From Maritimibacter harenae (GTDB lineage Bacteria; Pseudomonadota; Alphaproteobacteria; Rhodobacterales; Rhodobacteraceae), in the NCBI RefSeq assembly GCF_009882975.1, contig NZ_WTUX01000006.1, positions 124,001 through 188,000 of the forward strand: a DNA stretch of 64,000 nucleotides, written 5' to 3'. Below the pieces are notes generated by a model. It did not search any database. It was not told the DNA's origin and saw only the letters and a list, made by a program, of their open reading frames with translations. The position numbers and the translations under genes are program-made. Below are positions 1 to 19,500 of this stretch, piece by piece. The first letter of the stretch is position 1. Every line of letters starts with the position of its first letter.

Positions 1-701
1 GGCTCCGGCGTGCAGCCGAGGTGGATGGGGAAGTGCGGCGACAGCGCCGCCTTCAACGCGTCGCTCGTCTCTTGCGGCAAGGCGGCCAGACGGTCGCCCG
101 CGTCGAACACCTCGACCCGCACGCCAAGCCCGTGCATCGCCTGCGCCATCTCGAGTCCGAGCGGCCCCGCCCCGATCACGGCGAGCGTTCCGGGCAGGTC
201 GTCGATGTCGAAGAGCGTCGCGTTGGTCAGCACGCGGTCCGAAACCGCCTCGTAGGGCTTCGGAATGGCCGAGGTCGCGCCGGTCGCGATCACGATGGCC
301 CGCGCCTCGACCCGGTCGCCGGTGTCGAGCGAGAGAACGCCGGGCGCCTCGAAAGCCGCCTTCGCTTGGAGGCAAGTGCCGTCGGGCAAGTCGTCGATAG
401 ACTGGCGGACGCCACGGGCGAAGTCGTCACGCATGCGGCGCACGCGGTGCATCACGGCGGGACCGTCGACATCCACGCTCGTGCGCACGCCGAATTCGCC
501 GGCGTCGCGCGCGCCGTGCGCCGCGTCGGCGGCCGCGATCAGGAGCTTGGAGGGCATGCACCCGGCCATCGCGCAGGTGGTGCCCGCGAACTCCGGGTCG
601 ATCAGCAACGTGCGCGCGCCGTGGCGTCGTGCATGGCGTTCGGCGGACAGCCCGGCGGTGCCCGCCCCGATGACGGCCACGTCGGCCCGATGCGTGGTCA
701 T
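1..701 (-). CDS. Pyridine nucleotide-disulfide oxidoreductase (dihydrolipoamide dehydrogenase/mercuric reductase type), 3' end cut by window
   Basis: FAD- and NAD(P)H-dependent flavoprotein disulfide reductase, cytoplasmic. The N-terminus carries the FAD-binding GAGTAG motif (residues 12-17) and a redox-active cysteine pair, TTCAMAGCMPSK, with Cys43 and Cys48 in the C-x4-C spacing typical of the family. A second GxGxxG (VIGAGPLGLEMA, around residue 180) is the NAD(P)H site. Only about 233 residues are visible; the dimerisation domain with the His-Glu pair lies outside the window. It follows the SDR gene by 56 bases on the same strand and is probably the last visible gene of the monooxygenase operon. 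The substrate cannot be deduced; lipoamide, a mercuric-reductase-like role or another disulfide are all possible. Confidence 0.85.
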   Translation of the reverse strand, partial: MTTHRADVAVIGAGTAGLSAERHARRHGARTLLIDPEFAGTTCAMAGCMPSKLLIAAADAAHGARDAGEFGVRTSVDVDGPAVMHRVRRMRDDFARGVRQSIDDLPDGTCLQAKAAFEAPGVLSLDTGDRVEARAIVIATGATSAIPKPYEAVSDRVLTNATLFDIDDLPGTLAVIGAGPLGLEMAQAMHGLGVRVEVFDAGDRLAALPQETSDALKAALSPHFPIHLGCTPE

Positions 702-757
702 GGATGTCTCCCTGCAATCTCCCGAAAGCCCAACGCACCCCGGGCCGCGCAGGTTCC

Positions 758-1519
758 TCAGCCCTCGCCACTGATCCGGCGCCGCATGGCACGCTGGTAG
801 AGACCCGGCGAGGCGCGCATCAGCCACCATGACAGCCGCGCCACCCGGCCAACCGGGATCATCTCCCGCCCCTTGTCGACGCCGCGCAGGATCACGTTCG
901 CGGCATCGTCTGGCGTCATGTAGTCCACGCCGTCCGCCGCTGCGCCGGGGCGCAGGATGCCGTCCGCCCCGCGCTCGGGATTACCGATGTTGGTCGCCAC
1001 GAAGCTAGGCGCGGCAATGAGGGTGCGTACCCCGTACGCCGCTTCCTCGGACCGGAGGGAGGCGAAGAACCCCTCCAGCGCGTGTTTCGACGCGGCATAG
1101 GCCGTGCGGTTGTGCAGCGGCGCGAAACCCGCGACCGACGAGATGGCAAGATGCGTCCCCCGCGCGTCGCGCAATGGCCCGAGAAACGCCCGCGCCATCG
1201 CGACGGCGGCGAAGTAGTTGATCTCGAACACCCGCCGGTGGCTGTCCTCGCTCGCGCTCTCGAACGGGCCGATCTGGCTCACCCCGGCGTTGTAGATCAC
1301 CATGTCGATGCTCGGCCGATCCGCGATCACGCGCGCCGCCGCCTCCGCCAGCGCGGCCCCGTCGGTCAGGTCCACCGCGACCGGTGTGCGCGTCTCGCTC
1401 GGCTCCAGCCCGGCGACGTTCACATCCATCAGCACGCAATGCCATCCCCGCGCTTCGAGCGCGTCGGCCAGCGCCCGGCCCAGCCCGCCGTTCCCGCCGG
1501 AGATCACCGCCGTCTTCAC
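758..1519 (-). CDS. Short-chain dehydrogenase/reductase (classical SDR)
   Basis: NAD(P)-dependent oxidoreductase of about 253 residues, normal length for a classical SDR. The N-terminal SGGNGGLGRA is the dinucleotide-binding glycine motif, NAGVS the structural NAG motif, and YAASK the catalytic Tyr-x3-Lys, preceded by the catalytic Ser in ISSVAG. The GTG start is chosen because it overlaps the stop of the upstream epimerase as GTGA and because it places the glycine motif at the usual distance from the N-terminus; the frame stays open further upstream, but those codons lie inside the epimerase gene. The C-terminal SWWLMRASPGLYQRAMRRR is hydrophobic then basic, suggesting membrane association. 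The substrate is unknown. Confidence 0.85.
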   Translation of the reverse strand: MKTAVISGGNGGLGRALADALEARGWHCVLMDVNVAGLEPSETRTPVAVDLTDGAALAEAAARVIADRPSIDMVIYNAGVSQIGPFESASEDSHRRVFEINYFAAVAMARAFLGPLRDARGTHLAISSVAGFAPLHNRTAYAASKHALEGFFASLRSEEAAYGVRTLIAAPSFVATNIGNPERGADGILRPGAAADGVDYMTPDDAANVILRGVDKGREMIPVGRVARLSWWLMRASPGLYQRAMRRRISGEG

Positions 1520-2445
1520 AGCCCCGCCTCCTTGCGCCACAGCGCGAACACCTCGGCCGAGCTCAACTCGGGCCCGTAGCCGAACACCGATTTCAGCCGC
1601 TCGTTGGCCAGTACCGGGCGGTATTGCAGGAAGCGCACCTGTTCGGGGCCATACTGGATGAGCCCCAGTGGATGCGCCACCGCCAGCACGGCCTTGAGCA
1701 GCCAGGCGGGCAGGCGCAGCAGCGGCTTGCCCAACTGCCGTGCCAGGTCGTCGACCGTCAGCCACCCGTCGCCCGCGACGTTGTAGATCCCCGCCGGCCC
1801 GTCGGTCGCCGCCCGCTCCACGATCCGGGCGAGGTCGCGGGTCCAGATGAAGACGAAGGGACTGTCGGCCCCCCGGATCGCAAGCAGCCGGGGCCGGTGA
1901 AAGAGCGCCGTGATCTGGTTCTCGACCCCCGCCCCCAGCACGGTGCCCACGCGCAGCACGACCTGCTCCAGCGCGGGATGGTCGGTGCGCGCTCGGGCCA
2001 GCATCTCCTCGACCTGCCGCTTGTGATCGGCATAGGCGAATTCCGGGTTGCCCCGGACGGGCGCGTCCTCGGTCAGCGGCACGGGGTTGTCGGGGTGATA
2101 GCCATAGGCGGCCCCCGAGCTCGTCACCACGATCCGCCGCACGCCGTGGCGGATGCAGGCGTCCAGCACGTTGCGCGTGCCGGTCACGTCCACCGCGAAC
2201 GCCTGCTCCCGCGTCATTCCGGGCGGCGGGGTGACGATGGAGGCAAGGTGAACCACCACGTCCGGGCGCACCTCGCCGATCACCCCGTCGGGATCGTCGC
2301 CGGTCACGTCCATCCGCCGGAACGCCACCCCCTCGGGCAGCACCCCGCGATCGAGGTCCGTGGCGACCAGGTTCTCCATCGGCAGGGCCCCGATCAGTGC
2401 CCGGCCGACCATGCCGGCCGCGCCCGTGACGAGGATGCGGGTCAT
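1516..2445 (-). CDS. NAD-dependent epimerase/dehydratase family protein (extended SDR)
   Basis: Extended SDR of about 309 residues. It begins with the Rossmann motif TGAAGMVG and carries YADHK as the Tyr-x3-Lys catalytic pair after VTSSGAAYG. The family includes nucleotide-sugar epimerases and 3-beta-hydroxysteroid-dehydrogenase-like enzymes. The genes on both sides encode a bile-acid-type symporter and another SDR, so a small hydrophobic alcohol or ketone is a more likely substrate than a nucleotide sugar; this is inference. The ATG overlaps the symporter stop as ATGA and the stop overlaps the next gene's GTG, so translation is probably coupled along the operon. Confidence 0.82.
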   Translation of the reverse strand: MTRILVTGAAGMVGRALIGALPMENLVATDLDRGVLPEGVAFRRMDVTGDDPDGVIGEVRPDVVVHLASIVTPPPGMTREQAFAVDVTGTRNVLDACIRHGVRRIVVTSSGAAYGYHPDNPVPLTEDAPVRGNPEFAYADHKRQVEEMLARARTDHPALEQVVLRVGTVLGAGVENQITALFHRPRLLAIRGADSPFVFIWTRDLARIVERAATDGPAGIYNVAGDGWLTVDDLARQLGKPLLRLPAWLLKAVLAVAHPLGLIQYGPEQVRFLQYRPVLANERLKSVFGYGPELSSAEVFALWRKEAGL

Positions 2446-3338
2446 CGCGCCGCCTCGGTCCGGCCCATGATCGCCGCCAGCGCGATGCCGGAAATCGCGT
2501 GCCAGATCCCCCAGAACGCCGCGACCACGGCCATGCCGCCCAGCCCCCCGAAGAAGCCGAAGATCAGGACCAGCCCGAGGCCGGAGTTCTGGATGCCCGT
2601 CTCGATCGTGACCGAGCGGCGATCGAAGGCCGACAGGCCCGCAAGGGTCGCCGTGGTGAAGCCGCCCGCCAGCGCGATGGCATTGTGCAGCACCACCAGC
2701 CCGATGATCGCGCCGGCATAGGTCAGGAACTGCGTCCAGTTGGCGGCGAGCGCCACCGCGACGAAGGCGACGAAGATCGCCATCGACAGCCACTGGAGCG
2801 GCTTGCGCAACCGCGCCGTGATGTCGGGCCGCCGGGTGTTCAGCGTCACGCCCAGCACGAGCGGCAGGATCAGCATCAGCCCCACCGTGATCGCGATGCG
2901 CACCGGGTCGATCGACGTGGCGCGCAGGATTTCCGCGGACGGCCCATAGAGCCGCCCCCAGAAGGCGATATTGAAGGGCGTGGCGACGATGGCCCCCACC
3001 GTCGCGAAGGCGGTCATCGACACCGAAAGCGCCGCGTTGCCCCCGGCCCGGTGGGTGATGAAGTTCGAGATGTTGCCGCCCGGACAGGCGGCCACCAGCA
3101 TCAGCCCCAGCGCGACCGAGGCCTGCGGCTGCACCGCGAGCACCAGCAGGAAGGTCAGCGCGGGCAGCACGACGAATTGCGAAAACAGCCCGACAACCAG
3201 CGGCTTCGGCGCCTTCGCCAGAAGCCGGAAGTCGCGCGGGGTCAGGTCGATCGCGATCGAGAACATGACCACCGCGAGAATCGCGTTGAGCAGGGTCAGC
3301 GACCCCGCGGAGAAATCCAGGACCGCCTCGTCGATCAT
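2442..3338 (-). CDS. Bile acid:sodium symporter (BASS) family protein
   Basis: Integral membrane transporter of about 298 residues with roughly nine to ten hydrophobic segments. Family hallmarks are visible: ACPGGNISNF in the first half and the crossover motif TIETGIQNSGLGLVL in the second, both of which line the sodium and substrate sites in BASS proteins. Members import bile acids, pyruvate, pantoate or other organic anions with sodium. It overlaps the monooxygenase gene upstream and the epimerase downstream by ATGA, so it is co-expressed with a set of oxidoreductases. The natural inference is that it imports their substrate. The substrate itself cannot be read from the sequence. Confidence 0.85.
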   Translation of the reverse strand: MIDEAVLDFSAGSLTLLNAILAVVMFSIAIDLTPRDFRLLAKAPKPLVVGLFSQFVVLPALTFLLVLAVQPQASVALGLMLVAACPGGNISNFITHRAGGNAALSVSMTAFATVGAIVATPFNIAFWGRLYGPSAEILRATSIDPVRIAITVGLMLILPLVLGVTLNTRRPDITARLRKPLQWLSMAIFVAFVAVALAANWTQFLTYAGAIIGLVVLHNAIALAGGFTTATLAGLSAFDRRSVTIETGIQNSGLGLVLIFGFFGGLGGMAVVAAFWGIWHAISGIALAAIMGRTEAAR

Positions 3339-4651
3339 GCCGCCCGCCCCCCGAGCTTGCCGATCCAGCGGGTGACCGCCTTCCGGTAGGTCGCCTTGTC
3401 CACGTAATAGGCCATGCGCGGCAGGTCGATGTAGTTCATGCCCCCGGTCTCCCGACTGAAGCCCTCGGCCTTGGTCTTCTGCAAGGCGCGTGCCTCGGGG
3501 GTGCCGGCCCTCAACCCTTCGATGTAGCGCACCACCATCTCGGCCTGTTCGTGCCGGCCCTGCCAGCCCAGCCCGGACGCCTCGACCATTCCGAGAACGA
3601 ACAGGTCATCGCGCTCGGGGTGCATGCAGTTGAGGTAGAGATGCGGCGCGTCGCCCCGCCAGTTCAGGTGCGTATCGTCGATGAACGGGTAGTCGAGCTT
3701 GTAGCCCGTGGCGACGAGAACCATGTCGTACTCGGCGTGCGTCCCGTCCTTGAAATGCACCGTCTTGCCCTCGAACCTGTCGATGTCGGGGCGGATCGTG
3801 ATGTCGCCGTGGCCGGCGTGGTAGAGCACCAGAGAATTCACCACCGGATGGCTTTCGTAGAGCTTGTAGTCGGGCTTGGGGAACCCGTATTTCTGCGGGT
3901 CTCCCACGAACCACTTCAGGATCGTCCCGTCCACGATGCGCTTCAGCGCCATCGGCAACCGGATCGCGCCGCCCAGCGTGTCGGCGGGTTTGCCGAAGAC
4001 GTATTTCGGCACGAAGTAGTAACCCCGCCGCATCGACAGGTCGCAGGAGACGCCGTGATGGATCACGTCCACCGCGATGTCGCAGCCGGAATTGCCCGCG
4101 CCGATCACCAGCACGCGCTTGCCGTCGAACTGGCCGGGATAACGATACGCCGACGAATGGATCATCTCGCCGGTGAACTCGCCCTCGAACATGGGCATGT
4201 TCGGCGTCGACAGCGTGCCGTTGGCGATCAGGAGGCCCGCGAATTCTTCGACGTGCTCGCCCCCGTTATCGCGCCACGTGATCCGCCAGCCGTCGTTCGG
4301 CCCGCCGATCGGCTCGCAAGACAGCACCTCGGCGCCGAAGCGGTAATGCCTGTAGAGGTCGAAGTGCCTGGCGAAGTCCCGGAAATAGCGCTTCATTTCG
4401 CGGTGCGAGGGGTATTCGGCCACGTCGTCGTCCATCGGGAAATCGGTGAACTCGGTCATCCGCTTGGACGAGATCAGGTGCGCGGTCTCGTACATGGTCG
4501 AGCGGGGACCATCGATGTCCCAAAGCCCGCCCACGTCGTCGTTCAGCTCGAAGCCCTGGAACCCGATCCCGTGCTCGGCCAGAAGCTTTGCCGCGGCCAG
4601 TCCCATCGGTCCCGCCCCGATCAGGGCAAGCCGGTCGCGCGCCTCGCTCAT
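3335..4651 (-). CDS. Flavin-containing monooxygenase
   Basis: FAD/NADPH-dependent class B monooxygenase of about 438 residues. It shows the FAD motif GAGPMG (residues 12-17), the fingerprint FTGEMIHSSAY (FxGxxxHxxxY) between the two nucleotide domains, and the NADPH motif GAGNSGCD. These enzymes oxygenate N or S atoms or perform Baeyer-Villiger reactions. The ATG at MSEARD is chosen because AGGGAGGA lies a few bases upstream; the frame runs further upstream but would overlap the divergent regulator. It is the first gene of a coupled operon with a symporter and two SDR enzymes and is divergent from a TetR gene 60 bases away, which probably represses it. Confidence 0.88.
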   Translation of the reverse strand: MSEARDRLALIGAGPMGLAAAKLLAEHGIGFQGFELNDDVGGLWDIDGPRSTMYETAHLISSKRMTEFTDFPMDDDVAEYPSHREMKRYFRDFARHFDLYRHYRFGAEVLSCEPIGGPNDGWRITWRDNGGEHVEEFAGLLIANGTLSTPNMPMFEGEFTGEMIHSSAYRYPGQFDGKRVLVIGAGNSGCDIAVDVIHHGVSCDLSMRRGYYFVPKYVFGKPADTLGGAIRLPMALKRIVDGTILKWFVGDPQKYGFPKPDYKLYESHPVVNSLVLYHAGHGDITIRPDIDRFEGKTVHFKDGTHAEYDMVLVATGYKLDYPFIDDTHLNWRGDAPHLYLNCMHPERDDLFVLGMVEASGLGWQGRHEQAEMVVRYIEGLRAGTPEARALQKTKAEGFSRETGGMNYIDLPRMAYYVDKATYRKAVTRWIGKLGGRAA

Positions 4652-4676
4652 GATGTCCTCCCTTGTGCCTGTTAAC

Positions 4677-4692
4677 TTGAACATCTGTTCGA
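4677..4692. promoter_or_regulatory. Candidate TetR operator
   Basis: Inverted repeat GAACA-TC-TGTTC, with one further matching pair (T/A) outside a single mismatch on each side. It sits in the 60-base divergent gap between the monooxygenase and TetR start codons. The position and dyad shape fit an operator for the adjacent TetR regulator controlling both directions; this is inference. Confidence 0.5.
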
Positions 4693-4711
4693 AATAAGGC
4701 AAGATATTTTC

Positions 4712-5365
4712 ATGGCGGCGCCCCAACCCACTGACACGGAAAGAAAAAGAGCGCCCTCCAAACGGGCGCTCGCCACCCGAAAGCGGGTGTTCGATGCGGC
4801 GGAGAAGGTCTTCGCGGCGCGCGGATTCGACGGCGCCACGATCCGCGACATCGCCGCCGAGGCGGGCGAACCGGTTGGTACGATCCACCACCACGGGGGC
4901 GGCAAGGAGGCGCTGTTTCACCGCACCGTCGCCCGGCGCGCGACCCCGCTGTCCGAGGCCCGGCTGAAAGCGCTCGGGGTGCTGAAACGGGAGAACCAGG
5001 TCACGCTAGAGACCCTGCTCGACGCCTTCATGCGCCCGATCTTCGAGCTGTCGGACACGGACCCGGGCTGGCGCGCCTACGCGCGGCTCGTGGCGTTCGT
5101 GTCGGCCGACGACAGGTGGCGGGAGATTTCCGCGGAATGCTTCGACCCGACCGCCGAGCTTTTCCTGGCGGAACTGGGCGCGCTCCTGCCGGAGACGCCC
5201 CGCCCGGCGCTGGCGGAAGGCTTCGTGTTCTCGGTATCGGCGATGCTGGCCCTGCTCACCTCGCAGGGCCGGATCGCGGCGCTGGGGGGCGGCGCGGCCC
5301 CCGACAAGGAGCAGCTCGACCACCTCCTGCGCTTCAGCGCCGCGGGCCTGAAAGCCCGCGGCTGA
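4712..5365 (+). CDS. TetR/AcrR family transcriptional regulator
   Basis: DNA-binding regulator of about 217 residues. Residues about 20-66 form the TetR helix-turn-helix (RVFDAAEKVFAARGFDGATIRDIAAEAGEPVGTIHHHGGGKEALF). The usual YYHF at the end of the recognition helix is IHHHGG here. The C-terminal half is a ligand and dimer domain without recognisable specificity. It is transcribed away from the monooxygenase-symporter operon and a dyad lies between them, so local repression relieved by the pathway substrate is the simplest model. Confidence 0.88.
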   Translation: MAAPQPTDTERKRAPSKRALATRKRVFDAAEKVFAARGFDGATIRDIAAEAGEPVGTIHHHGGGKEALFHRTVARRATPLSEARLKALGVLKRENQVTLETLLDAFMRPIFELSDTDPGWRAYARLVAFVSADDRWREISAECFDPTAELFLAELGALLPETPRPALAEGFVFSVSAMLALLTSQGRIAALGGGAAPDKEQLDHLLRFSAAGLKARG

Positions 5366-5377
5366 GGCGACGCCGGA

Positions 5378-6424
5378 TCAGGCGGCCGCCGCGCTCGATT
5401 CACGCGGGACGAGCGCCCGCATCAGGTCGACCATCGTGAGCGTCCCGACCGGTTTGTCACCGTCCAGCACGCGGAACTGCCGGTCGACCGCCCCCTCGGC
5501 GCGGGCGATCACGCTTTCCAGCGTATCGTTGACGTCGACATCCCCGAAACAATCGCCCTCCGGCGGGGTGCTCTCCATCACCGAGCGCACCCGGAGCACC
5601 CGGGCGCGGTTGATGTCGGCAACGAAGTCCTCAATGTAGGGGTCGGACGGGTTCATCAGGATCTTCTGCGGCTCACCCTGCTGGACCACCGCGCCATCCT
5701 TCAGGATGACCAGGTGATCGGCCAGCTTCAGGGCCTCGTCGAGGTCGTGGGTGATGAAGACGATGGTCTTCTTGAGCTCCGCCTGGAGCTCCAGCAGCAG
5801 GTCCTGCATGTCTGTGCGGATCAGCGGGTCCAATGCCGAGAACGCCTCGTCCATCAGCATGATGTCGGAGTTGGACGCCAGCGCCCGGGCGATGCCCACG
5901 CGCTGCTGCATCCCGCCCGAAAGCTGGTGCGGATACTGGTCGTCCTGGCCCTGGAGCCCCACGCGGTCGAGCCACTTTCGCGCCTCGGCCTCGTAGTCGT
6001 CCCGCTTGTAGCCCTCGGTCGCCAGAGCCATCCCCGCGTTCTCCAGCACCGTGCGGTGCGGCAGAAGCGCGAACTTCTGGAACACCATCGACATCGCCTC
6101 GCGCCGCAGACGACGCAGTCGGCTTTCGCTCCAGGACAGGATGTCTTCGCCGTCCACCAGCACCTCGCCCGCCGTCGGTTCGATCAGGCGGTTGAGGTGG
6201 CGGATCAGCGTGGACTTGCCCGACCCGGACAGACCCATGATGACCGTGATCTCGCCCTCGCGCATGTCGACGTTGATGTCGTTCAGCCCGAGCACGTGAT
6301 TGGTCTCGGCCATCAGCTCGTCCTTGGTCATGCCGTCCTTCACACGGTCCAGCACGCCCTCCGGGTCTTCGCCGAAGATCTTGTAGAGATGGCGGATGGA
6401 TACCTTGATGTTGTCGTCGCTCAT
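5378..6424 (-). CDS. proV: Glycine betaine/choline-type ABC transporter ATP-binding protein
   Basis: Cytoplasmic ATPase of a quaternary-amine ABC importer, about 348 residues. Walker A is GLSGSGKST (from residue 64), the signature is LSGGMQQR, Walker B is IMLMDEAFSALDP, and the switch histidine is in FITHD. The roughly 80-residue tail after FVADINRARVL resembles the CBS-type regulatory extension of ProV but is shorter than the E. coli two-CBS tail. It lies 9 bases after the permease gene. The substrate may be glycine betaine, choline or trimethylamine N-oxide; the ATPase alone cannot tell. Confidence 0.88.
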   Translation of the reverse strand: MSDDNIKVSIRHLYKIFGEDPEGVLDRVKDGMTKDELMAETNHVLGLNDINVDMREGEITVIMGLSGSGKSTLIRHLNRLIEPTAGEVLVDGEDILSWSESRLRRLRREAMSMVFQKFALLPHRTVLENAGMALATEGYKRDDYEAEARKWLDRVGLQGQDDQYPHQLSGGMQQRVGIARALASNSDIMLMDEAFSALDPLIRTDMQDLLLELQAELKKTIVFITHDLDEALKLADHLVILKDGAVVQQGEPQKILMNPSDPYIEDFVADINRARVLRVRSVMESTPPEGDCFGDVDVNDTLESVIARAEGAVDRQFRVLDGDKPVGTLTMVDLMRALVPRESSAAAA

Positions 6425-6433
6425 GGTGACCTC

Positions 6434-7465
6434 CTATCGGCTGGACTGGCTTGCATCGATCCGCGCGAGCGACGCCTTGGTCACCCGGTCGAGGATGATC
6501 GCCAGGATCACGATGCCAAGGCCCGCGATCAGGCCGACACCGAGCTCCAGGTTGCGGATGCCGCGCAGGACGAGGATGCCCAGCCCCGGCGCCGACACCA
6601 TCGACGCGATGACGACCATCGCGAGGCTCATCATGATGGTCTGGTTCACACCGGCCATGATGTTGGGCAGAGCGAGCGGGATCTGCACCCCGAAGAGCTT
6701 CTGCCGGCGGGTCATCCCGAAGGCGTCCGCGGCCTCGATCACGTCTTTGTCCACCAGCCGGATGCCAAGGTCGGTGAGACGCACGACCGGCACGATGGCG
6801 TAAAGGATAACCGCGATGCCGTAGAGTTTCGGCTCGGTCACGGAGAACAGGAAGATCAGCGGGATGAGATAGACGAAGGGCGGCAGCGTCTGGAGCATGT
6901 CGAGCACCGGGATCGCCACCCTCTGAAGCTTGTCGGACCGCGACATCGCGATGCCTATGGGCACCCCGAACAAGACGCATATGAAGGCACAGACGAAGAT
7001 GATCGCCAGCGTCTGCATCGCGTAGTCGTAGTAATCGACGAAGGCCAGAAGCCCGATGCCGAGCGCGACGAAGCCGATGATCTTCCACGACCGTGTCACG
7101 AACCATGTGATGAGAAGCAGGATCGGGATCATGACGTACCACGGGGTAGAGGTCATGACGTCGAGCGTGCCGCGCAGCATCCAGCTGAGCGGCTGGGTGA
7201 CCGGGTCCACCACCACGGTCAGCGCGTCGCGGATGTCGAGGAACCCCTGTTCGAGCCCCACGGTCAGGTCGCGCGATTGCGGCCAGGCCGGGCAGGCCTC
7301 GTTCAGCGCGTCGAGCGAGGGGAACGGCACCGGGCCGTTCGCCGCTTCTTCCGATCCCTTGGTCTGGGCCATGAGGTCTTCCATCGACATCGGTCCGGCC
7401 TCGCCGCCGCTGTCGCACCAGTCACGCAAACCCAGCGTGTCGAATAGTCCGTCGTAAGTCGCCAT
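6434..7465 (-). CDS. proW: Glycine betaine/choline-type ABC transporter permease
   Basis: Membrane permease of about 343 residues. The first 100 or so residues are largely hydrophilic, then several transmembrane segments follow (for example WYVMIPILLLITWFV and LAIIFVCAFICVLFGVPIG). The EAA loop that contacts the ATPase is visible as EAADAFGMTRRQKLFGVQIPLALPNIMAG. The long N-terminal extension is a known feature of ProW-type permeases. It sits between the binding-protein and ATPase genes, in the order X-W-V. Confidence 0.87.
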   Translation of the reverse strand: MATYDGLFDTLGLRDWCDSGGEAGPMSMEDLMAQTKGSEEAANGPVPFPSLDALNEACPAWPQSRDLTVGLEQGFLDIRDALTVVVDPVTQPLSWMLRGTLDVMTSTPWYVMIPILLLITWFVTRSWKIIGFVALGIGLLAFVDYYDYAMQTLAIIFVCAFICVLFGVPIGIAMSRSDKLQRVAIPVLDMLQTLPPFVYLIPLIFLFSVTEPKLYGIAVILYAIVPVVRLTDLGIRLVDKDVIEAADAFGMTRRQKLFGVQIPLALPNIMAGVNQTIMMSLAMVVIASMVSAPGLGILVLRGIRNLELGVGLIAGLGIVILAIILDRVTKASLARIDASQSSR

Positions 7466-7509
7466 ATGCGGTCGTCAGGCTGTCGCCCCTCCTGTTGTGA
7501 AACGCAGAA

Positions 7510-7533
7510 GCGGGGCCGGCATCCCGGCCCCGC
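7510..7533 (-). terminator. Strong hairpin between proX and proW
   Basis: Perfect 10-bp GC-rich stem (arms GCGGGGCCGG and CCGGCCCCGC) with a 4-base loop, just after the binding-protein stop. On the transcribed strand it is followed by TTCTGCGTTTC, only moderately T-rich. It is more likely an attenuator or 3'-end stabiliser that raises binding-protein mRNA over permease mRNA than a full terminator. Confidence 0.6.
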
Positions 7534-7558
7534 CTGATCTTCGCCTCGCGGCGTCGTC

Positions 7559-8539
7559 TTACTGGATCAGCGAAGAGAGGTTCTCTTCGGCGCTGTCGTT
7601 GACCCAATCCGTCCAGGTGTTCTGGGCGGTGGTCAGGAAGTGCACCGCGACCTCTTCGTTCGACGCGTTGTTCTCATCCTTCCAGGCCAGCAGGCTGGAC
7701 ATCTGCTCGGTCGAGAACGTCATGTTCGAGAAGAACTCGGTGACTTCCGGGTTTTCCTCGGTGAACTCGGAGGTGACCGAGGTCAGGATCGGCGCGGCCG
7801 GGAAGTCCGAGACCTGCGGATCCGGGGTGTCGGGGTTCTGAAGTTCGCTGAACGCGGCTTCGTCGTACTCGCCCAGCTTCACGCGGGTCATGTCGTACTT
7901 GCCGAGCGGAACGGTCGGGCCCCAGTAGTAGCCGAACCAGGGATCGTCGTTGGTGACGGCGGCGCCCATCGAGGAAGCCAGCGTTTCACCGGAACCGTGG
8001 TTGAACACCTCGATGCCCGAGCTTTCCAGGTCGAGCGCTTCGACGAGGTTGTCGGACACGACGCGGCAGCCCCAGCCGTCCGGGCAGTTGTTGAAGCGGC
8101 CGCCGACGAGGTCGGGGTTCTCCATGATGCCTTCGATGGTGGTCAGCTCCGGGTGCTCTTCTGCAAGAGCCGTCGGAATCCACCAGCCTTCGACGCCGCC
8201 CGGTTCGAGCACCGAGGTCAGGCGTTCGATCTTGCCGCCGTCCTCCAGCTTCTTGTAGGCGTCGCCGGCGGAGTTGAGCCACAGGTTCGTCACCACGTCC
8301 GGCTCACCGTTTTCGGCAACCGAGGTGATCGCCGGGATGGTGTCCGATTGCACCAGCGTGACGTCGCAGTCGTAGCCCTGCTCGAGCAGGAATTTCGCGA
8401 TGTTCGTCGTGACCTCGGCCGCGGCCCAGCCCATCTGGGCGATCGAGACTTCACCGCACTCCGAGTCCTGCGCGCTCGCAGTGGCGGGGATGAGGGTCAT
8501 GGCGGCTAGCGCCGTCGAAGCAAGTGTCAGCTTGCGCAT
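7559..8539 (-). CDS. proX: Quaternary-amine ABC transporter substrate-binding protein
   Basis: Periplasmic binding protein of about 326 residues with a Sec signal peptide (MRKLTLASTALAAMTLIPATASAQ) ending at an AxA site. It belongs to the OpuAC/ProX group, whose members hold trimethylammonium groups in a box of aromatic residues; the many tryptophans (GWWIP, DPWFGYYWG) fit this. The ATG is chosen because it begins the signal peptide and has AGGAGT upstream; an in-frame ATG further upstream would place a long hydrophilic stretch before it. Ligand candidates are glycine betaine, choline and trimethylamine N-oxide, the last being common in marine Roseobacters. Confidence 0.85.
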   Translation of the reverse strand: MRKLTLASTALAAMTLIPATASAQDSECGEVSIAQMGWAAAEVTTNIAKFLLEQGYDCDVTLVQSDTIPAITSVAENGEPDVVTNLWLNSAGDAYKKLEDGGKIERLTSVLEPGGVEGWWIPTALAEEHPELTTIEGIMENPDLVGGRFNNCPDGWGCRVVSDNLVEALDLESSGIEVFNHGSGETLASSMGAAVTNDDPWFGYYWGPTVPLGKYDMTRVKLGEYDEAAFSELQNPDTPDPQVSDFPAAPILTSVTSEFTEENPEVTEFFSNMTFSTEQMSSLLAWKDENNASNEEVAVHFLTTAQNTWTDWVNDSAEENLSSLIQ

Positions 8540-8663
8540 GGTGTTACTCCTGTACCAATTTACATTCACCAGCCCGCAAGAGCGCCCAAAAAGCCCGCCG
8601 CATGTGTGGAAAAGGCATGTCGATGGGCAAGGGGTCACTCGCAACTCGACTGGATTCGGGCGC

Positions 8664-8676
8664 TTCGATAATCGAA
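8664..8676. promoter_or_regulatory. Inverted repeat upstream of proX
   Basis: Perfect dyad TTCGAT-A-ATCGAA, about 125 bases upstream of the proX start codon. It may be an operator for an osmotic or choline-responsive regulator, but no regulator gene is adjacent. Confidence 0.35.
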
Positions 8677-8817
8677 ACGCTTTCGTACCTCAAACGTAAA
8701 TTTGGTGAGGGTCTCAGCGGGGTTATAATCCACTTTGCCGCACATTATTTATCTATAATCATACACTTAACCCTTTGTATTGACGTAAGGTAAATGCGCT
8801 AGAGTCGTCAATATTTG

Positions 8818-8833
8818 CTGAATTTTTATTCAG
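8818..8833. promoter_or_regulatory. AT-rich inverted repeat CTGAAT-TTTT-ATTCAG
   Basis: Perfect 6-bp arms around four T residues in the AT-rich part of the proX/gyrB gap. It could be an operator or a small hairpin; no function can be assigned. Confidence 0.3.
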
Positions 8834-8897
8834 TAAGTAAAGTATTTCGGACCCAACCGGCTCCGAATCAACGGTTCGAGTGCGCCAAGAAACGATG

Positions 8898-8923
8898 CAC
8901 GCCGGGTCGAAGAACCCGGCGTG
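8898..8923 (-). terminator. gyrB terminator hairpin
   Basis: Arms CACGCCGGGT and ACCCGGCGTG form a perfect 10-bp stem with a 6-base loop, about 30 bases after the gyrB stop. The following transcribed bases (CATCGTTTCTTGG) contain only a short T tract, so it is a moderate intrinsic terminator. Confidence 0.6.
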
Positions 8924-8952
8924 TCGCGGCGTCGTCCGTTTAGGCCAGCGCC

Positions 8953-12102
<3,150 letters not shown>

Positions 12103-12106
<4 letters not shown>

Positions 12107-13218
12107 GCCGCGACCTCCCGGATGACCGACTGCCCCGCCTCGTCGCGCACCTCGACATGCATGGCCCGCGCGCCGAGCTCTGTGAAAAGCTCGGGCCCCG
12201 TGCCCGTGAGGAACGCCTGCGCGCCCAGCGCGACGATCTCGTCGTAGAGCGCGGCGCGCCGGTCCGCGTCGAGATGGGCCGAGACCTCGTCGAGCAGCAG
12301 CATGGGCGGCGCCCCGAAGTCCTGCGCCAGCGCGCGGCCGTGGGCGAGGATCAGCGAGACGAGCAGCGCCTTCTGCTCCCCGGTCGAACACTCGCGCGCG
12401 GGCATCCCCTTGTCGGCATAGGTCGCGGCAAGGTCGGCCCGGTGCGGGCCCACCAGCGTGCGCCCGGCCATCAGGTCGCGCGGCCGGCTCTCGGCGAAGG
12501 CCGTGGCGAGTTCCGCCTCGCCCTCGGGCCCGATCTCCGCCCCCTCGGCATGCAGAAGCTGAAGCTCGGCGGCGGGAAAGGCGGTCTCGGCCGCCATCTG
12601 TGCCCCCACGATCAGCGCCACGGTGCGCGCCCGGTTTTCCTGGATCGCCGCCCCGGCGCGCGCCATCTGCGCCTCGAGCGCCCCGTACCAGTGCGCGTCC
12701 CTGTGCCCGTCCTTCAACAGCCGGTTGCGGTCGCGCATCGCCTTTTCATAGTTCAGCACGGCCTCGCCGTGCCCCGGCTCGAAGCTCATCGCCATCCGGT
12801 CGAGGAACTTGCGCCGTCCCTCGGCCCCCTCGACCCAGAGCCGGTCCATCACCGGGACGAGCCACGTCACCCGCGCGATCCGGCCCAAGGCCACCTGCGC
12901 GGCGGCCTTGCCGTCGATGGTCACCTGGCGTGACTGGCCCGGCTCGGCCCAGGTCTCGATCTCGTGGAGCTGGTCGCGCGATTGCAGAAGCCCGGTGATC
13001 TTCCAGCCCACTGACTCGGGTTTGCGCGCCATCTCGTCGGCGGACGCGCCACGCAAGCCCCGGCCGGGCGACACCAGGCTCACCGCCTCGAGGATGTTGG
13101 TCTTGCCCGCCCCGTTCGGCCCGAAGATCGCCACGGGCCGCCCGTCGAGCGCCAGTTCCGCGCGCCGGTGCGAGCGGAAATGCGACAGGGTGAGTTCACG
13201 CAGGAAAAGGCCCGTCAT
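12103..13218 (-). CDS. recF: DNA replication and repair protein RecF
   Basis: ABC-type ATPase that with RecO and RecR loads RecA at single-strand gaps; about 371 residues. Walker A is GPNGAGKTN near residue 33, the signature motif is STGEQKALLVSLIL, and Walker B is MLLLDEVSAHLD. The position after dnaN fits the conserved dnaA-dnaN-recF order. The stop overlaps the GTG of the LysE gene. Confidence 0.95.
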
Positions 13219-13285
13219 CCGCGCCCTTTCATCTTTCCGAAAATACGCTCGCCGAAGGCAAGCCGGTCACGGGGTGCGGGGGCCG

Positions 13286-14404
13286 TCACACGCGCATCGG
13301 CATCACGACGTAGACCGCGCTGGTGTCGTTGCCTTCGCGCATCAGGGTCGGGTCGCCGGAGGAGTTGAACAGGAACACCGCGTTCTCGCGGTCCACCTGG
13401 CTCGCGATCTCGAGCAGGTACTTCGCGTTGAACCCGATTTCCATCGGGTCCGCGCCATAGGCGACGATCAGTTCTTCCTCTGCCGCGCCCGCGTCCGGCG
13501 CGTTGACGGACAGGGTGAGCTTGTCCTCGCCCAGCGACAGCTTCACGGCGCGCGAACGCTCCGAGGACACCGTTGCCACGCGATCGACCGCCTTGGCGAA
13601 CTCGCTCGCGTCCACTTCCATCTTCTTGGAATTGCCCTGCGGGATGACGCGCGTGTAGTCCGGGAAGGTCCCGTCGATCACCTTGGAGGTGAGCGTGATG
13701 TCGGGCGTCGCGAAGCGCACCTTGGTTTCGCCGACCGACACCGCGATCTGCATGTCGTCGTCTTCCAGGAGCTTGCGAAGTTCGCCCACGGTCTTGCGCG
13801 GCACGATCACGCCCGGCATGTCCTCGGCCCCGGCCGGAAGGTCGGCGTCGATCCGGGCCAGACGGTGCCCGTCCGTCGCCACGCAGCGCAGCACCTTGCC
13901 GTCCTCGCCGTCGGCCACATGCATGTAGACGCCGTTGAGGTAATACCGCGTCTCTTCCGTGGAAATCGCGAATTTCGACTTGTCGAACAGGCGGCGCAGG
14001 ACCGGCGCGGGCGCCGAGAAATTCGCGGCGTATTCCGACGTGGTCATCACCGGGAAGTCTTCTTTCGGCAGCGTCGCCAGCGAGAAGTTCGAGCGCCCGG
14101 CCTCGACCGTCAGCCGGCCCGAGGTGCCGTCGTCGGCAAGGCTCACCATTGCCCCGTCCGGCAGCTTGCGCACGATCTCGTGCAGCGTCACGGCGCTGAC
14201 CGTGGTCGCCCCGGCGCGTTCCACCATCGCCGGCGCCTTGTCCACGACCTCGATATCGAGGTCGGTGGCCCGGAAGCTGACCGTATCCCCTTCGGCCTCG
14301 ATCAGGACGTTGGCCAGGATCGGAATGGTGTTGCGGCGTTCGACGACCGATTGCGCCTGTCCGACTGCCTTGAGCAGCACGGCGCGTTCGACGGAAATCT
14401 TCAT
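13286..14404 (-). CDS. dnaN: DNA polymerase III subunit beta (sliding clamp)
   Basis: Ring-shaped processivity clamp that tethers polymerase III to DNA; about 372 residues, the expected length for three repeated clamp domains. Visible features are the start MKISVERAVLLKAVGQAQSVVERRNTIPILANVLIEA, the central FAISTEETRYYLNGVYMHV, and the C-terminal YVVMPMRV, which ends in the conserved MPMR. GGGAGT precedes the ATG. It lies between dnaA and recF. Confidence 0.97.
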   Translation of the reverse strand: MKISVERAVLLKAVGQAQSVVERRNTIPILANVLIEAEGDTVSFRATDLDIEVVDKAPAMVERAGATTVSAVTLHEIVRKLPDGAMVSLADDGTSGRLTVEAGRSNFSLATLPKEDFPVMTTSEYAANFSAPAPVLRRLFDKSKFAISTEETRYYLNGVYMHVADGEDGKVLRCVATDGHRLARIDADLPAGAEDMPGVIVPRKTVGELRKLLEDDDMQIAVSVGETKVRFATPDITLTSKVIDGTFPDYTRVIPQGNSKKMEVDASEFAKAVDRVATVSSERSRAVKLSLGEDKLTLSVNAPDAGAAEEELIVAYGADPMEIGFNAKYLLEIASQVDRENAVFLFNSSGDPTLMREGNDTSAVYVVMPMRV

Positions 14405-14524
14405 GTCCCACTCCCGGATTTACGTGGGCCGATGAGGCCCCGGGACGGCGACATTACCCGGTTCCCCGCCCGTCTCAAGTTTTTTTGCACTGTCTGTGGG
14501 AATACGGGGGGCGTCAAGTGCCCC

Positions 14525-15898
14525 CTAGTGCTCCAGAGCCTTGCGCAGAAGGTCCACATCCTCGGCCATCTGCGTGTCGGCATTCACCAGTTCCTCGACC
14601 CGCTTCACGGCGTGCATGACGGTCGAGTGATCGCGCCCGCCGAAGCGACGCCCGATATCGGGGTAGGAGCGCGTCGTGAGGTCCTTGGAGAGCTTCATCG
14701 CCACCTGGCGCGGCCGCGCGATCGAGCGCAGGCGCTTCGGACCGATCAGGTCGGACAGGCGGATGCCGTAGTGCTCGGCCACCTTGCGCTGGATCTCTTC
14801 CACCGTGACCTTGCGGTCCGACGCGCGCAGCACGTCCGTCAGGCATTCCTGCGCGCGCTCCAGCGTGATCTCTCCGCCGACGAGCGACGCGAAGGCGAAG
14901 AGCCGCATCAACGCCCCTTCCAGCACGCGGACGTTGGTCGAAATACGGTGCGCGAGGAATTCGAGCACGCCATCGGCGATCGTCAGGTCCGGGTACTGCG
15001 TGCGGTAGGCCGAGACCTTGGACTGGAGCACGCCCAGGCGCAGCTCGTAATCGGTCGGGTGCAGGTCCACCACCAGCCCGCATTGCAGGCGGCTCTTGAT
15101 CCGCTCCTCGAGATCCTTGATCTCACCCGGCGCGCGGTCGGCGGAGATGATGATCTGCTTGTTCTGGTCCACGAGCGCGTTGAACGTGTGGAAGAACTCT
15201 TCCTGCGTGCTGTCCTTGCCCGCGATGAACTGAACGTCATCGACCATCAGCACGTCGACCGAGCGGAAGAGGTGCTTGAAATCCATCATCGCCTTGTCGC
15301 GCAGCGCCTGGACGAAGCGGTACATGAACTGTTCGGCCGACAGGTAGACGACGCGCAGCTCCGGGTTCCGCTCCTGCATCTCGTGCGCAATGGCGTGCAT
15401 CAGGTGCGTCTTGCCCAGCCCCACGCCGCCGTAGAGGAACAGCGGGTTGAACGTGACCGGCCCGCCCTCGGCCACGCGGCGCGCGGCGGCATGGGCCAGT
15501 TCGTTGGGCTTGCCGACAACGAAGCTGTCGAAGGTGAAGCGCGGGTCGAGCGGCGCGCCCGGCAGATCGTCCCCGCCGGTGCGGGCCGGGCGGGCGTTGC
15601 CGTTGGCCGAGACCGCGGGCGTGGCATCCGTGGCCGCCGCACGCGGCTGGCCCGAGGAACGGGGCACGACGAACTCGAGGCGGGACACGCTCGCCCCGAC
15701 CGTCTTCATGTGCTGGAGGATCTGCTCGCCGAAGTTGCGCTGCACCCAGTTGCCCATGAAGTTCGTGGGCACGAGGAAGGTGGCGACACCGCCATCGAGG
15801 TCAGCGAATTCGAGCGGCTCGATCCAGTTCCGGTAGTTGTTCTGTCCCACCGATTGTTCAAGCCGTTCACGAACCTGTCCCCACATGCTGTCTGCCAT
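14525..15898 (-). CDS. dnaA: Chromosomal replication initiator protein DnaA
   Basis: AAA+ initiator of about 457 residues that binds DnaA boxes and opens the origin. Domain I is at the N-terminus (WGQVRERLEQSVGQNNYRNWIEPLEF). The AAA+ core begins with NPLFLYGGVGLGKTHLMHAI (Walker A) and has VLMVDDVQFIAGK (Walker B). The C-terminal helix-turn-helix contains LSKDLTTRSYPDIGRRFGGRDHSTVMHAVKRV, the DnaA signature. The linker domain is short. The 546-base upstream gap holds several GANTC sites, suggesting methylation-linked control. Confidence 0.97.
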   Translation of the reverse strand: MADSMWGQVRERLEQSVGQNNYRNWIEPLEFADLDGGVATFLVPTNFMGNWVQRNFGEQILQHMKTVGASVSRLEFVVPRSSGQPRAAATDATPAVSANGNARPARTGGDDLPGAPLDPRFTFDSFVVGKPNELAHAAARRVAEGGPVTFNPLFLYGGVGLGKTHLMHAIAHEMQERNPELRVVYLSAEQFMYRFVQALRDKAMMDFKHLFRSVDVLMVDDVQFIAGKDSTQEEFFHTFNALVDQNKQIIISADRAPGEIKDLEERIKSRLQCGLVVDLHPTDYELRLGVLQSKVSAYRTQYPDLTIADGVLEFLAHRISTNVRVLEGALMRLFAFASLVGGEITLERAQECLTDVLRASDRKVTVEEIQRKVAEHYGIRLSDLIGPKRLRSIARPRQVAMKLSKDLTTRSYPDIGRRFGGRDHSTVMHAVKRVEELVNADTQMAEDVDLLRKALEH

Positions 15899-16876: not shown

Positions 16877-17764
16877 CTACCCGTCGATCTGGTCGCGCCA
16901 GCCATGCTTGGGCGCGAACCCGACGAGCCGCCGGGCCTTCGCGTTGGAATAGAAGCTCTCGTATTCCCCCATCTCCCGCGTGACCGGTACGCCGTCGTAG
17001 AACCGTGCTGCCACCTCGGCCGACGGCATGCCGACCGAGCTGTCGTCGTTGGCCACGTTGAACACCTCGTAGCCCAGCCCGTCGGTCTTCAGGCAGCAGT
17101 CGACCATGTGGCCCAGGTCGCGCGCATCGATGTAGGCGAAGATGTTGCGCCGGCGCAGGGCCGGGTCCTTCACGAACGCCGGGAAGTCGCGGGCGTATTC
17201 GTGCGGCTCGATCACGTTGTTGATGCGCAGCCCGTAGATGTCGACGCCCGAGCGCGCCTGGAAACTGCGCGCGGTCGCTTCGTTCACGACCTTGGACATG
17301 GCGTAGCTGTCCTCGGGCACCGTCGGGTGGTCTTCGTCCACGGGGATGTAGTCCGGCTTGCGCTCGCCCTGCGCGAAACAGATGCCGTAGGTGGTTTCGG
17401 ACGAAGCGAAGACGATCTTGCGGATGCCCAGGCGGACCGCAGCGTCGATGATGTTGTAGGTGCCCAGAGTGTTGACCCGGAAACATTCGTTGTCCGAGGT
17501 CATGAGGATGCGCGGGATCGCCGCGAAATGCACCACGGCGTCGAAGGACGGCGGGCGCGGCGCGTCGAGCTCGTCGAAACCCGCGAGGCTGGTCATCGTG
17601 TCGTGAACCTGCCCGGCGTCGGTGATGTCCACGATCCGGTTCTCGACCCCCGGCAGATCGAGCGGCACCTTGTCCACGTTCAGGACGCGGTGCCCCTGCG
17701 CCAGCAGGTGCTCGATCGCGTGACGCCCGGCCTTGCCGGAGCCCCCGGTGAACAGAACGCGCAT
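16877..17764 (-). CDS. NAD-dependent epimerase/dehydratase family protein (extended SDR)
   Basis: Extended SDR of about 295 residues with the N-terminal Rossmann motif TGGSGKAG and the catalytic pair in YAMSK, after ASSETTYG. IVDITDAG is the acidic loop after the cofactor-binding strands. It is likely a nucleotide-sugar or sugar-acid epimerase or dehydrogenase (uronate-dehydrogenase-like enzymes have the same look), but the substrate cannot be read. The enoyl-CoA hydratase gene lies 43 bases upstream on the same strand, so the two may be co-transcribed. Confidence 0.8.
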   Translation of the reverse strand: MRVLFTGGSGKAGRHAIEHLLAQGHRVLNVDKVPLDLPGVENRIVDITDAGQVHDTMTSLAGFDELDAPRPPSFDAVVHFAAIPRILMTSDNECFRVNTLGTYNIIDAAVRLGIRKIVFASSETTYGICFAQGERKPDYIPVDEDHPTVPEDSYAMSKVVNEATARSFQARSGVDIYGLRINNVIEPHEYARDFPAFVKDPALRRRNIFAYIDARDLGHMVDCCLKTDGLGYEVFNVANDDSSVGMPSAEVAARFYDGVPVTREMGEYESFYSNAKARRLVGFAPKHGWRDQIDG

Positions 17765-17807
17765 GACTTGCCCTCCTCCTGGCGGACCGGCCGCAGGTGG
17801 TCCGGCC

Positions 17808-18584
17808 CTACTTGTCGCGGAACTGCGGCTCGCGCTTCTCGATGAAGGCCGCCATGCCTTCCTTCTGGTCGGCGGTGGCGAACATCGAGTGGAACACGCG
17901 ACGCTCGAACAGGATCGCCTCGGTCAGCGGCATCTGGTCGGCGCGGTGCACCGCTTCCTTGATCGCCATGACGCTGATCATGCTCTTCTCCGCGATCTTC
18001 TTCGCGGCCGAGGTCGCCTCGTCGATGAGCTTCTTGCAGGGCACCACGCGGCTGACCAGCCCGGCGCGCTCCGCCTCTTCGGCCTCCATGAAGCGGCCCG
18101 TCAGGTTCATGTCCATCGACTTCGCCCGGCCCACGAGCCGCGTGAGCCGCTGGGTGCCGCCCATGCCGGCCATCACGCCGAGGTTCACCTCCGGCTGGCC
18201 GAACTTCGCGGTGTCCGAGGCGATGATGAAATCGCACATCATGGCCAGCTCGCAGCCCCCGCCCAGCGCATAACCGGACACGGCCGCGATGATCGGCTTG
18301 CGGATGCGCATGATCGCATCCTCTTCGGGGGTGAACAGGTCGCCGGCGAAGACATCGGCGAAGCTCTTGTCCGACATCATCTTGATGTCGGCCCCGGCGG
18401 CGAACGCCTTTTCCGACCCGGTGATGACGAAGCAGCGCACCTTGTCGTTCTTCTGGCCCTCGGCCAGCGCCTCACCCAGCTCCTTGAGCAGTTCGAGGTT
18501 GAGCGCGTTGAGCGCGTCAGGACGGTTCAGGCGGATCGTGCAGACATGGTCGTCCACGTCCACGATGATGTTGTCATAAGCCAT
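17808..18584 (-). CDS. Enoyl-CoA hydratase
   Basis: Crotonase-fold enzyme of 258 residues that adds water to 2-enoyl-CoA in fatty-acid beta-oxidation. The oxyanion-hole motif AAGADIKMM and the active-site region YALGGGCELAMMCD with its catalytic Glu are present; the second Glu is in FGQPEVNLGVMAGMGG. Length and motifs match the short-chain hydratase (FadB/EchA type) rather than an isomerase or a hydroxycinnamoyl-CoA lyase. It is separate from the crotonase in the aromatic locus. Confidence 0.9.
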   Translation of the reverse strand: MAYDNIIVDVDDHVCTIRLNRPDALNALNLELLKELGEALAEGQKNDKVRCFVITGSEKAFAAGADIKMMSDKSFADVFAGDLFTPEEDAIMRIRKPIIAAVSGYALGGGCELAMMCDFIIASDTAKFGQPEVNLGVMAGMGGTQRLTRLVGRAKSMDMNLTGRFMEAEEAERAGLVSRVVPCKKLIDEATSAAKKIAEKSMISVMAIKEAVHRADQMPLTEAILFERRVFHSMFATADQKEGMAAFIEKREPQFRDK

Positions 18585-18648
18585 GTCTGCGGGAACCCCT
18601 TCCAGTGCTTCCGCTCATGCCTATGCGAGTCTCGCTTCGGGCTTCAAG

Positions 18649-19500
18649 TCATCTTTGACAGCGCGGGCAATAGAACGACGAGCGGCCCGATTGCACGATC
18701 CGCGCGATTTTGCCCTGACATTCCGGTGTTTTGCACGGATGTCCCTCGCGGTCGTAGACCCGGAAGGTGTGTTGAAAATACCCCAGCTCGCCATCCGCCT
18801 GCCGGTAGTCGCGCAGGGACGATCCCCCGGCCGCGATCGCCTCGTTCAGCACGTCGCGGATGATCGGGACCAGCGACGCGATCCGCGCGGACGAGATGCG
18901 GCCGGCCTTGCGTGCCGGGTGGATGCGGGCGCGGTAGAGCGCTTCGCAGACATAGATGTTGCCCAGCCCCGCCACGACCCTCTGGTCGAGAAGCGCCGAC
19001 TTGATCGGCGTGTTGCGGCCCTTGAGACGCGCGACGAGGTATTCCTCGTTGAACGCATTGCCCAAAGGCTCGGGCCCCAGCGCGGCGATCAGGGGGTGAA
19101 GCTCTCCGGTGCCGGTGGTGAACAGGTCCATCGCCCCGAAGCGGCGCGGGTCGTTCAGCGTCACGCGCGCCCCGCCCTCGAAATCGAGCACCACGTGGTC
19201 GTGCTTCTCCGGCGCCGGGTGCGCGTGGTGGAATTCGCCGATCTGCGCGCCGGAAATCAGGACGCGGCCCGACATCCCCAGGTGCAGAAGCACCGTTTCG
19301 CCGGTGTCGAGATCCCCCAGGATGTATTTCGAGCGCCGCCGCAGCCCCAGCACCCGAGCGCCGGTCAGCCGCTCGGCCATGCGCTCGGGGAAAGGCCAGC
19401 GCAGCCCCTCGCGACGCACGTCGGCGTTGAGGATCCGTTTGCCTGTCATCACGGGCTCGAGCCCGCGCCGCACCGTTTCGACTTCGGGAAGTTCGGGCAT
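18649..19500 (-). CDS. mutM: Formamidopyrimidine-DNA glycosylase
   Basis: Base-excision repair enzyme that removes 8-oxoguanine and formamidopyrimidines and nicks the strand; about 283 residues. The N-terminal MPELPEVET contains the catalytic Pro2 and Glu3 (Met removed), and the C-terminus has the zinc finger with CKTPEC (C-x4-C) and CPRC. The C-x4-C first half differs from the C-x2-C of E. coli and is usual in alphaproteobacteria. It is divergent from ubiE, a common Rhodobacterales arrangement. Confidence 0.95.

Follow-up and report, generated by a model that had tools for sequence, protein, structure and literature searches.

The gene families considered in this work are individually already known, and the closest described systems are the class B flavin monooxygenases (FMOs), the symporter ASBT-Nm, and the PsrA-type TetR repressors. 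Type I Baeyer-Villiger monooxygenases carry the fingerprint FxGxxxHxxxW, and BASS proteins can vary both in the direction of transport and in substrate. Characterised FMOs possess an active-site Asn, which corresponds to N57 in DiatB (structures 8z12 for the wild type and 8z16 for the N57A variant), N78 in mFMO, and N61 in human FMO3. This residue stabilises the C4a-peroxyflavin (PMC10682829, PMC5676948), and human FMO3 with the N61S substitution binds NADPH less firmly, forms a less stable intermediate, and no longer oxygenates trimethylamine (PMC5676948). A survey of the active-site dyad described its second residue as mostly Asn, with Gln in one clade and only sparse Thr, His, and Val; Asn or Gln at this position was considered important for the C4a intermediate, and mFMO mutated at the second dyad residue had no activity (PMC10682829). 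At the first dyad position, every FMO performing Baeyer-Villiger reactions has Leu or Ile (PMC10682829).

The stretch of DNA analysed here (the window) comprises 64,000 nucleotides of Maritimibacter harenae (contig NZ_WTUX01000006.1, positions 124,001 to 188,000). Near its beginning, four genes lie on the minus strand, each pair overlapping by four bases. The first gene of the operon encodes an FMO-like flavoprotein of 438 aa (3335–4651; PF00743, 185 bits), followed by a BASS-family sodium-coupled symporter of 298 aa (2442–3338; PF01758 (SBF), 116 bits), an extended SDR of 309 aa (1516–2445; PF01370 (Epimerase), 99 bits), and a classical SDR of 253 aa with a GTG start (758–1519; PF00106 (adh_short), 127 bits). 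The overlaps are ATGA between FMO and BASS (3335–3338), ATGA between BASS and the extended SDR (2442–2445), and GTGA between the two SDR genes (1516–1519). A gene for a TetR regulator with a PsrA-like C-terminal domain diverges from them on the plus strand (4712–5365; PF17939 (TetR_C_30), 105 bits; PF00440 (TetR_N), 49 bits). A preliminary description of this DNA had reported these three overlaps and the divergent TetR gene, which the coordinates and Pfam matches confirm, and its reading of a single operon under a TetR regulator is supported. The four-base overlaps are kept at 83/93, 88/93, and 89/93 orthologous junctions, which is more than chance would give.

The same description had included a pyridine nucleotide-disulfide reductase in the gene set. 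Its gene (1–701, minus strand; PF07992, 140 bits) starts at 701, indeed 56 bases past the SDR stop, and continues out of the window; in the extended locus L004 it is present at full length (17277–18701). Its membership in the set did not hold: a homologue beside the module was found at none of the other loci examined, two genomes of the same genus included, and likewise no homologue of the gene that follows it adjoins the module elsewhere. The disulfide reductase was therefore ruled out as a fifth module gene and is treated as a neighbour, which may still be co-transcribed with the module in this strain. It adjoins a protein of 829 aa encoded just beyond the window start (L004, 14750–17239), an unusual fusion of an extended SDR (Epimerase), SPW repeats, and a VKOR domain. 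In the same locus, acyl-CoA dehydrogenase, thiolase, FadB-like, and acetyl-CoA hydrolase genes are consecutive on the opposite strand (7209–14749).

Conservation of the four genes was followed in a family sample of 149 genera. Besides the window's own genus, 20 genera have FMO orthologues, with 72–84% identity, after which identity drops sharply to 39% for the next match, and the extended-SDR orthologues occupy the identical set of 21 genera. The order FMO-BASS-extended SDR-SDR is intact in 20/20 of the outside family loci, 19 of which have the divergent TetR gene. In a wider set of 80 named loci, 76 are alphaproteobacterial, from carriers such as a Mesorhizobium MAG, Hoeflea, Ahrensia, Roseibium, and Roseobacter-group genera. 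The gene order holds in nearly all of them, the exceptions being some loci cut by contig ends, and a minority is without TetR. The other four (Acidovorax, Caldimonas, and an unplaced Proteobacteria MAG) show SDR-FMO-BASS(-extended SDR), with an IclR-like gene divergent in three of them; at the betaproteobacterial loci the order is SDR-FMO-BASS-extended SDR and the divergent gene is IclR-like. The wider search also returned a Pseudomonas-like family with FMO-BASS-SDR, in which two loci (L165 and L166) have a divergent AraC-like gene, two distant alphaproteobacteria with BASS-extended SDR-FMO, and further arrangements at other loci. Since an extended SDR is not detectable in the Pseudomonas-like loci, the four genes are not always all needed. 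In one locus (L048, 7556–8490), the extended SDR is broken over two frames by a frameshift or a sequencing error.

Over 97 loci, the pairwise identities of the four module proteins correlate with each other (rho 0.63–0.79; 0/200 permutations), and no other gene families are conserved around the module. An acyl-CoA ligase gene was considered as an extra member and was not called, because only a minority of loci have one in the vicinity. The preliminary description would have fallen had the neighbourhood been unique to this strain; the synteny search removes that objection, as the module recurs widely. It is nevertheless accessory, since it occurs in only 21/149 family genera and in 3/8 genomes of the same genus (G889 among them). 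No match to plasmids in PLSDB was found at E 1e-100. Sequence comparison establishes that the overlapping genes are inherited together as a unit and are paired with a regulator of their own. With moderate confidence, we regard this unit as a self-contained module whose most likely function is to take up one organic anion together with Na+ and to oxidise it, under repression by TetR.

The flavoprotein resembles class B FMOs (DiatB 8z12, ZvPNO 5nmw, mFMO 2vq7, and AncFMO5 6sek) in a whole-length profile match, in the fold of its model (Z 24.9–29.1), and in sharing both dinucleotide motifs and FxGxxxHxxxY. In the window, the GxGxxG motifs read GAGPMG (residues 12–17) and GAGNSG (184–189), and F159, G161, H165, and Y169 are conserved in 107–109 of the 109 module FMOs. 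In contrast to class B FMOs, with which it shares 22–31% identity in structural alignments, the module protein carries an invariant Ile for Asn: Ile60, within the motif HLISSK, takes the place of the active-site Asn, and the position aligned with DiatB N57 is Ile in 109/109 module FMOs and in 11/13 distant relatives. The first dyad residue is Leu in 109/109, so that the dyad is Leu-Ile. The preliminary description had not mentioned this loss of the Asn. The AlphaFold model is of moderate quality (pLDDT 75.9), and the Asn-to-Ile call comes from the sequence alignment. Because the dinucleotide motifs and FxGxxxHxxx(Y/F) are present while the Asn is missing, the protein is classed as FMO-like and not as an N/S-oxygenating FMO; with the trimethylamine monooxygenase model NF058570 it scores 100.7 bits versus a cut-off of 675. 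An earlier hint at N- or S-containing substrates is weakened by the absence of the Asn of characterised N/S-oxygenating FMOs; without this residue, the flavoprotein may even catalyse something other than a monooxygenase reaction. One distant relative with the same Ile is encoded between large polyketide-synthase-like reading frames (L176, 9414–10736).

These residues also bear on a special case of the preferred reading, in which, after uptake, the SDRs would oxidise an alcohol to a ketone and the flavoprotein would then carry out a Baeyer-Villiger-type oxygen insertion on the ketone or keto acid. The invariant Leu agrees with the Leu or Ile found at the first dyad position of FMOs with this activity (PMC10682829), and two NAD-type dehydrogenases could provide ketones. 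However, Ile stands where the Asn or Gln important for the C4a intermediate should be (PMC10682829), and the core contains no esterase or lactonase. The type I fingerprint FxGxxxHxxxW is not matched either, as Y169 replaces its final W in 109/109 module FMOs. We therefore hold this variant to be possible but rather doubtful.

The transporter contains the SBF domain and residues Q54, S91, N92, S105, T109, and E246, conserved in 104–105 of 105 proteins, which align with the residues that we take to form both Na+ sites of ASBT-Nm (3zuy, 8oyf); it thus belongs with BASS symporters. It differs from the bile acid:sodium symporter subfamilies in scoring below the NCBIfam cut-offs for 'bass' (TIGR00841; 179.7 versus 326.3 bits) and PanS (119.6 versus 400 bits). 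Both dehydrogenases have the Ser and YxxxK catalytic residues of SDRs. In the extended SDR, S109, Y138, and K142 are present in 101/101 sequences and Asp30, of the NAD type, in 98/101; in the classical SDR, the corresponding counts are 106/106 for Y141 and K145, 105/106 for S128, and 99/106 for Asp32. The mostly kept Asp at the end of the second strand suggests that both would use NAD.

This equipment can be set against detoxification and export, in which the enzymes would modify a toxic lipophilic compound, the BASS protein would export the resulting anion, and TetR would sense the toxin. Detoxification systems often employ TetR regulators and FMOs, and an accessory, patchy module would suit such a role. 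Retention of the residues of both Na+ sites favours Na+-driven import instead, two dehydrogenases are more typical of catabolism, and the regulator elsewhere is IclR-like or AraC-like, which together make this explanation unlikely. From the Na+ sites, we infer import rather than export for the preferred uptake and oxidation module.

Between TetR and FMO lies a predicted TetR operator, TTGAACATCTGTTCGA (4677–4692), which is a TTGAAC-N4-GTTCAA palindrome with one mismatch here. At least 9 of its 12 fixed bases are matched in 88/88 loci with a divergent TetR gene, and at least 10 in 87/88, as against 0/13 loci without divergent TetR at the threshold of at least 9 (Fisher p 1e-16, a value that overstates independence, as the loci are related). 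As background, 61/1200 random stretches from the same loci reach 9/12, some of them being perhaps real copies. The columns that we read as the −35 and −10 elements of the FMO gene are conserved in the 88 loci; in the window, they are TTGCCT (4702–4697) and CAAGTT (4679–4674), separated by a 17-base spacer. This putative FMO promoter (4674–4702, minus strand) would have the predicted operator across its spacer, although a scan for the sigma-70 consensus did not report it. On the TetR side, TTGAAC and CAAGAT with 17-base spacing (within 4677–4712) end a few bases upstream of the TetR ATG, and transcription of the TetR gene may begin only a short way from its ATG. The motif alone was rejected as a definition of a regulon, because the genome holds 10 sites with at most one mismatch versus 4 for the control. 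One such one-mismatch copy is located at the start of an acyl-CoA dehydrogenase-like gene on another contig of the same genome (C57; L185, at about 4904).

The regulator shares with PsrA-type repressors the TetR_C_30 domain and an inverted repeat of the form GAAC-spacer-GTTC overlapping a promoter; it differs from them in its predicted target, the divergent FMO operon, and in lying far under the PsrA family cut-off (NF053516; 48.4 bits versus 300). Its match to 2fbq, which we take to be PsrA of P. aeruginosa, has an E value of 1.4e-8, and NicR scores better. PsrA-like lipid sensing, in which a fatty-acid-like compound would be processed in connection with beta-oxidation genes beyond the window edge, draws on this domain and weak match, on the resemblance of the operator to the PsrA site GAAAC-N4-GTTTC (PMC13104628), and on the acyl-CoA dehydrogenase, thiolase, FadB-like, and acetyl-CoA hydrolase genes found about 3.3 to 10.8 kb past the edge on the opposite strand. 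The low family score and the better match to NicR count against it, as does the lack of any conserved linkage between the beta-oxidation genes and the module; we regard it as quite improbable. Chance adjacency of families that are frequent in these genomes (FMO, SBF, and SDR), with no joint function, is barely credible given the perfect co-occurrence, the conserved overlaps, and the sets that are reordered yet retained in other classes.

A cluster of TRAP transporter, FAH-hydrolase, and metallo-beta-lactamase genes adjoins the module in one genome of the same genus (G886) and in the Mesorhizobium MAG (L111), and a homologous TRAP/FAH cluster in the window's own genome carries a matching palindrome. 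The FAH gene occurs in only 2/149 sampled genera (the window's own and one at 53% identity), the TRAP gene in 1/149, and the FAH gene is present in two genomes of the same genus that lack the module FMO. The cluster was rejected as a part of the module and is kept as an accessory association. In the Mesorhizobium MAG, genes for TetR, FAH, a small cupin-like protein, acyl-CoA ligase, FMO, BASS, extended SDR, and SDR all lie on the same strand (4015–11897), and the module's own TetR is missing. In the window's own genome, the cluster on contig C52 (L202 and L203; gene names taken directly from the sequences rather than from a family search) contains a BVMO-like gene, aldehyde and alcohol dehydrogenases, SDRs, and transposase fragments, together with an FAH-family gene, a second TetR, a TRAP transporter, and an exact TTGAAC-N4-GTTCAA at C52:48023.

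In the uptake and oxidation module that we favour, TetR bound to the palindrome between the divergent genes would block the operon promoter until it is released by a ligand, for which the substrate or a product is the probable candidate. The BASS protein would then co-transport an organic anion with Na+, and the FMO-family flavoprotein with its atypical site and the two NAD-type SDRs would convert this anion for entry into central metabolism. From the wider reading in the preliminary description (successive oxidation or reduction), the idea that one organic acid is taken up and then oxidised step by step is plausible, the order of reactions and the catabolic direction being our reading of the gene content. 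A steroid or terpenoid substrate is favoured by none of these observations. Among the conserved core genes, none codes for a CoA ligase, a hydrolase, or a ring-cleaving enzyme; the module thus does not display a catabolic route from end to end, and a role in biosynthesis or detoxification is possible. Literature searches, largely without subscription journals, returned no description of the gene combination or of the Asn-to-Ile subfamily, and a search for DiatB returned nothing; this agrees with the earlier statement that no pathway with such a gene order has been described.

More tentatively, and with clearly less confidence than in the function proposed above, the Leu-Ile FMO subfamily could perform a flavin reaction unlike N- or S-oxygenation and head a widespread, so far undescribed Na+-driven catabolic module whose regulators (TetR, IclR, AraC) are swapped between lineages. 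This compact module recurs in other proteobacteria as well as in a large number of marine Rhodobacterales, and a reporter built on its conserved operator could be used to search for the inducer. An FMO subfamily without the active-site Asn would offer a test of how far flavin oxygenation needs that residue.
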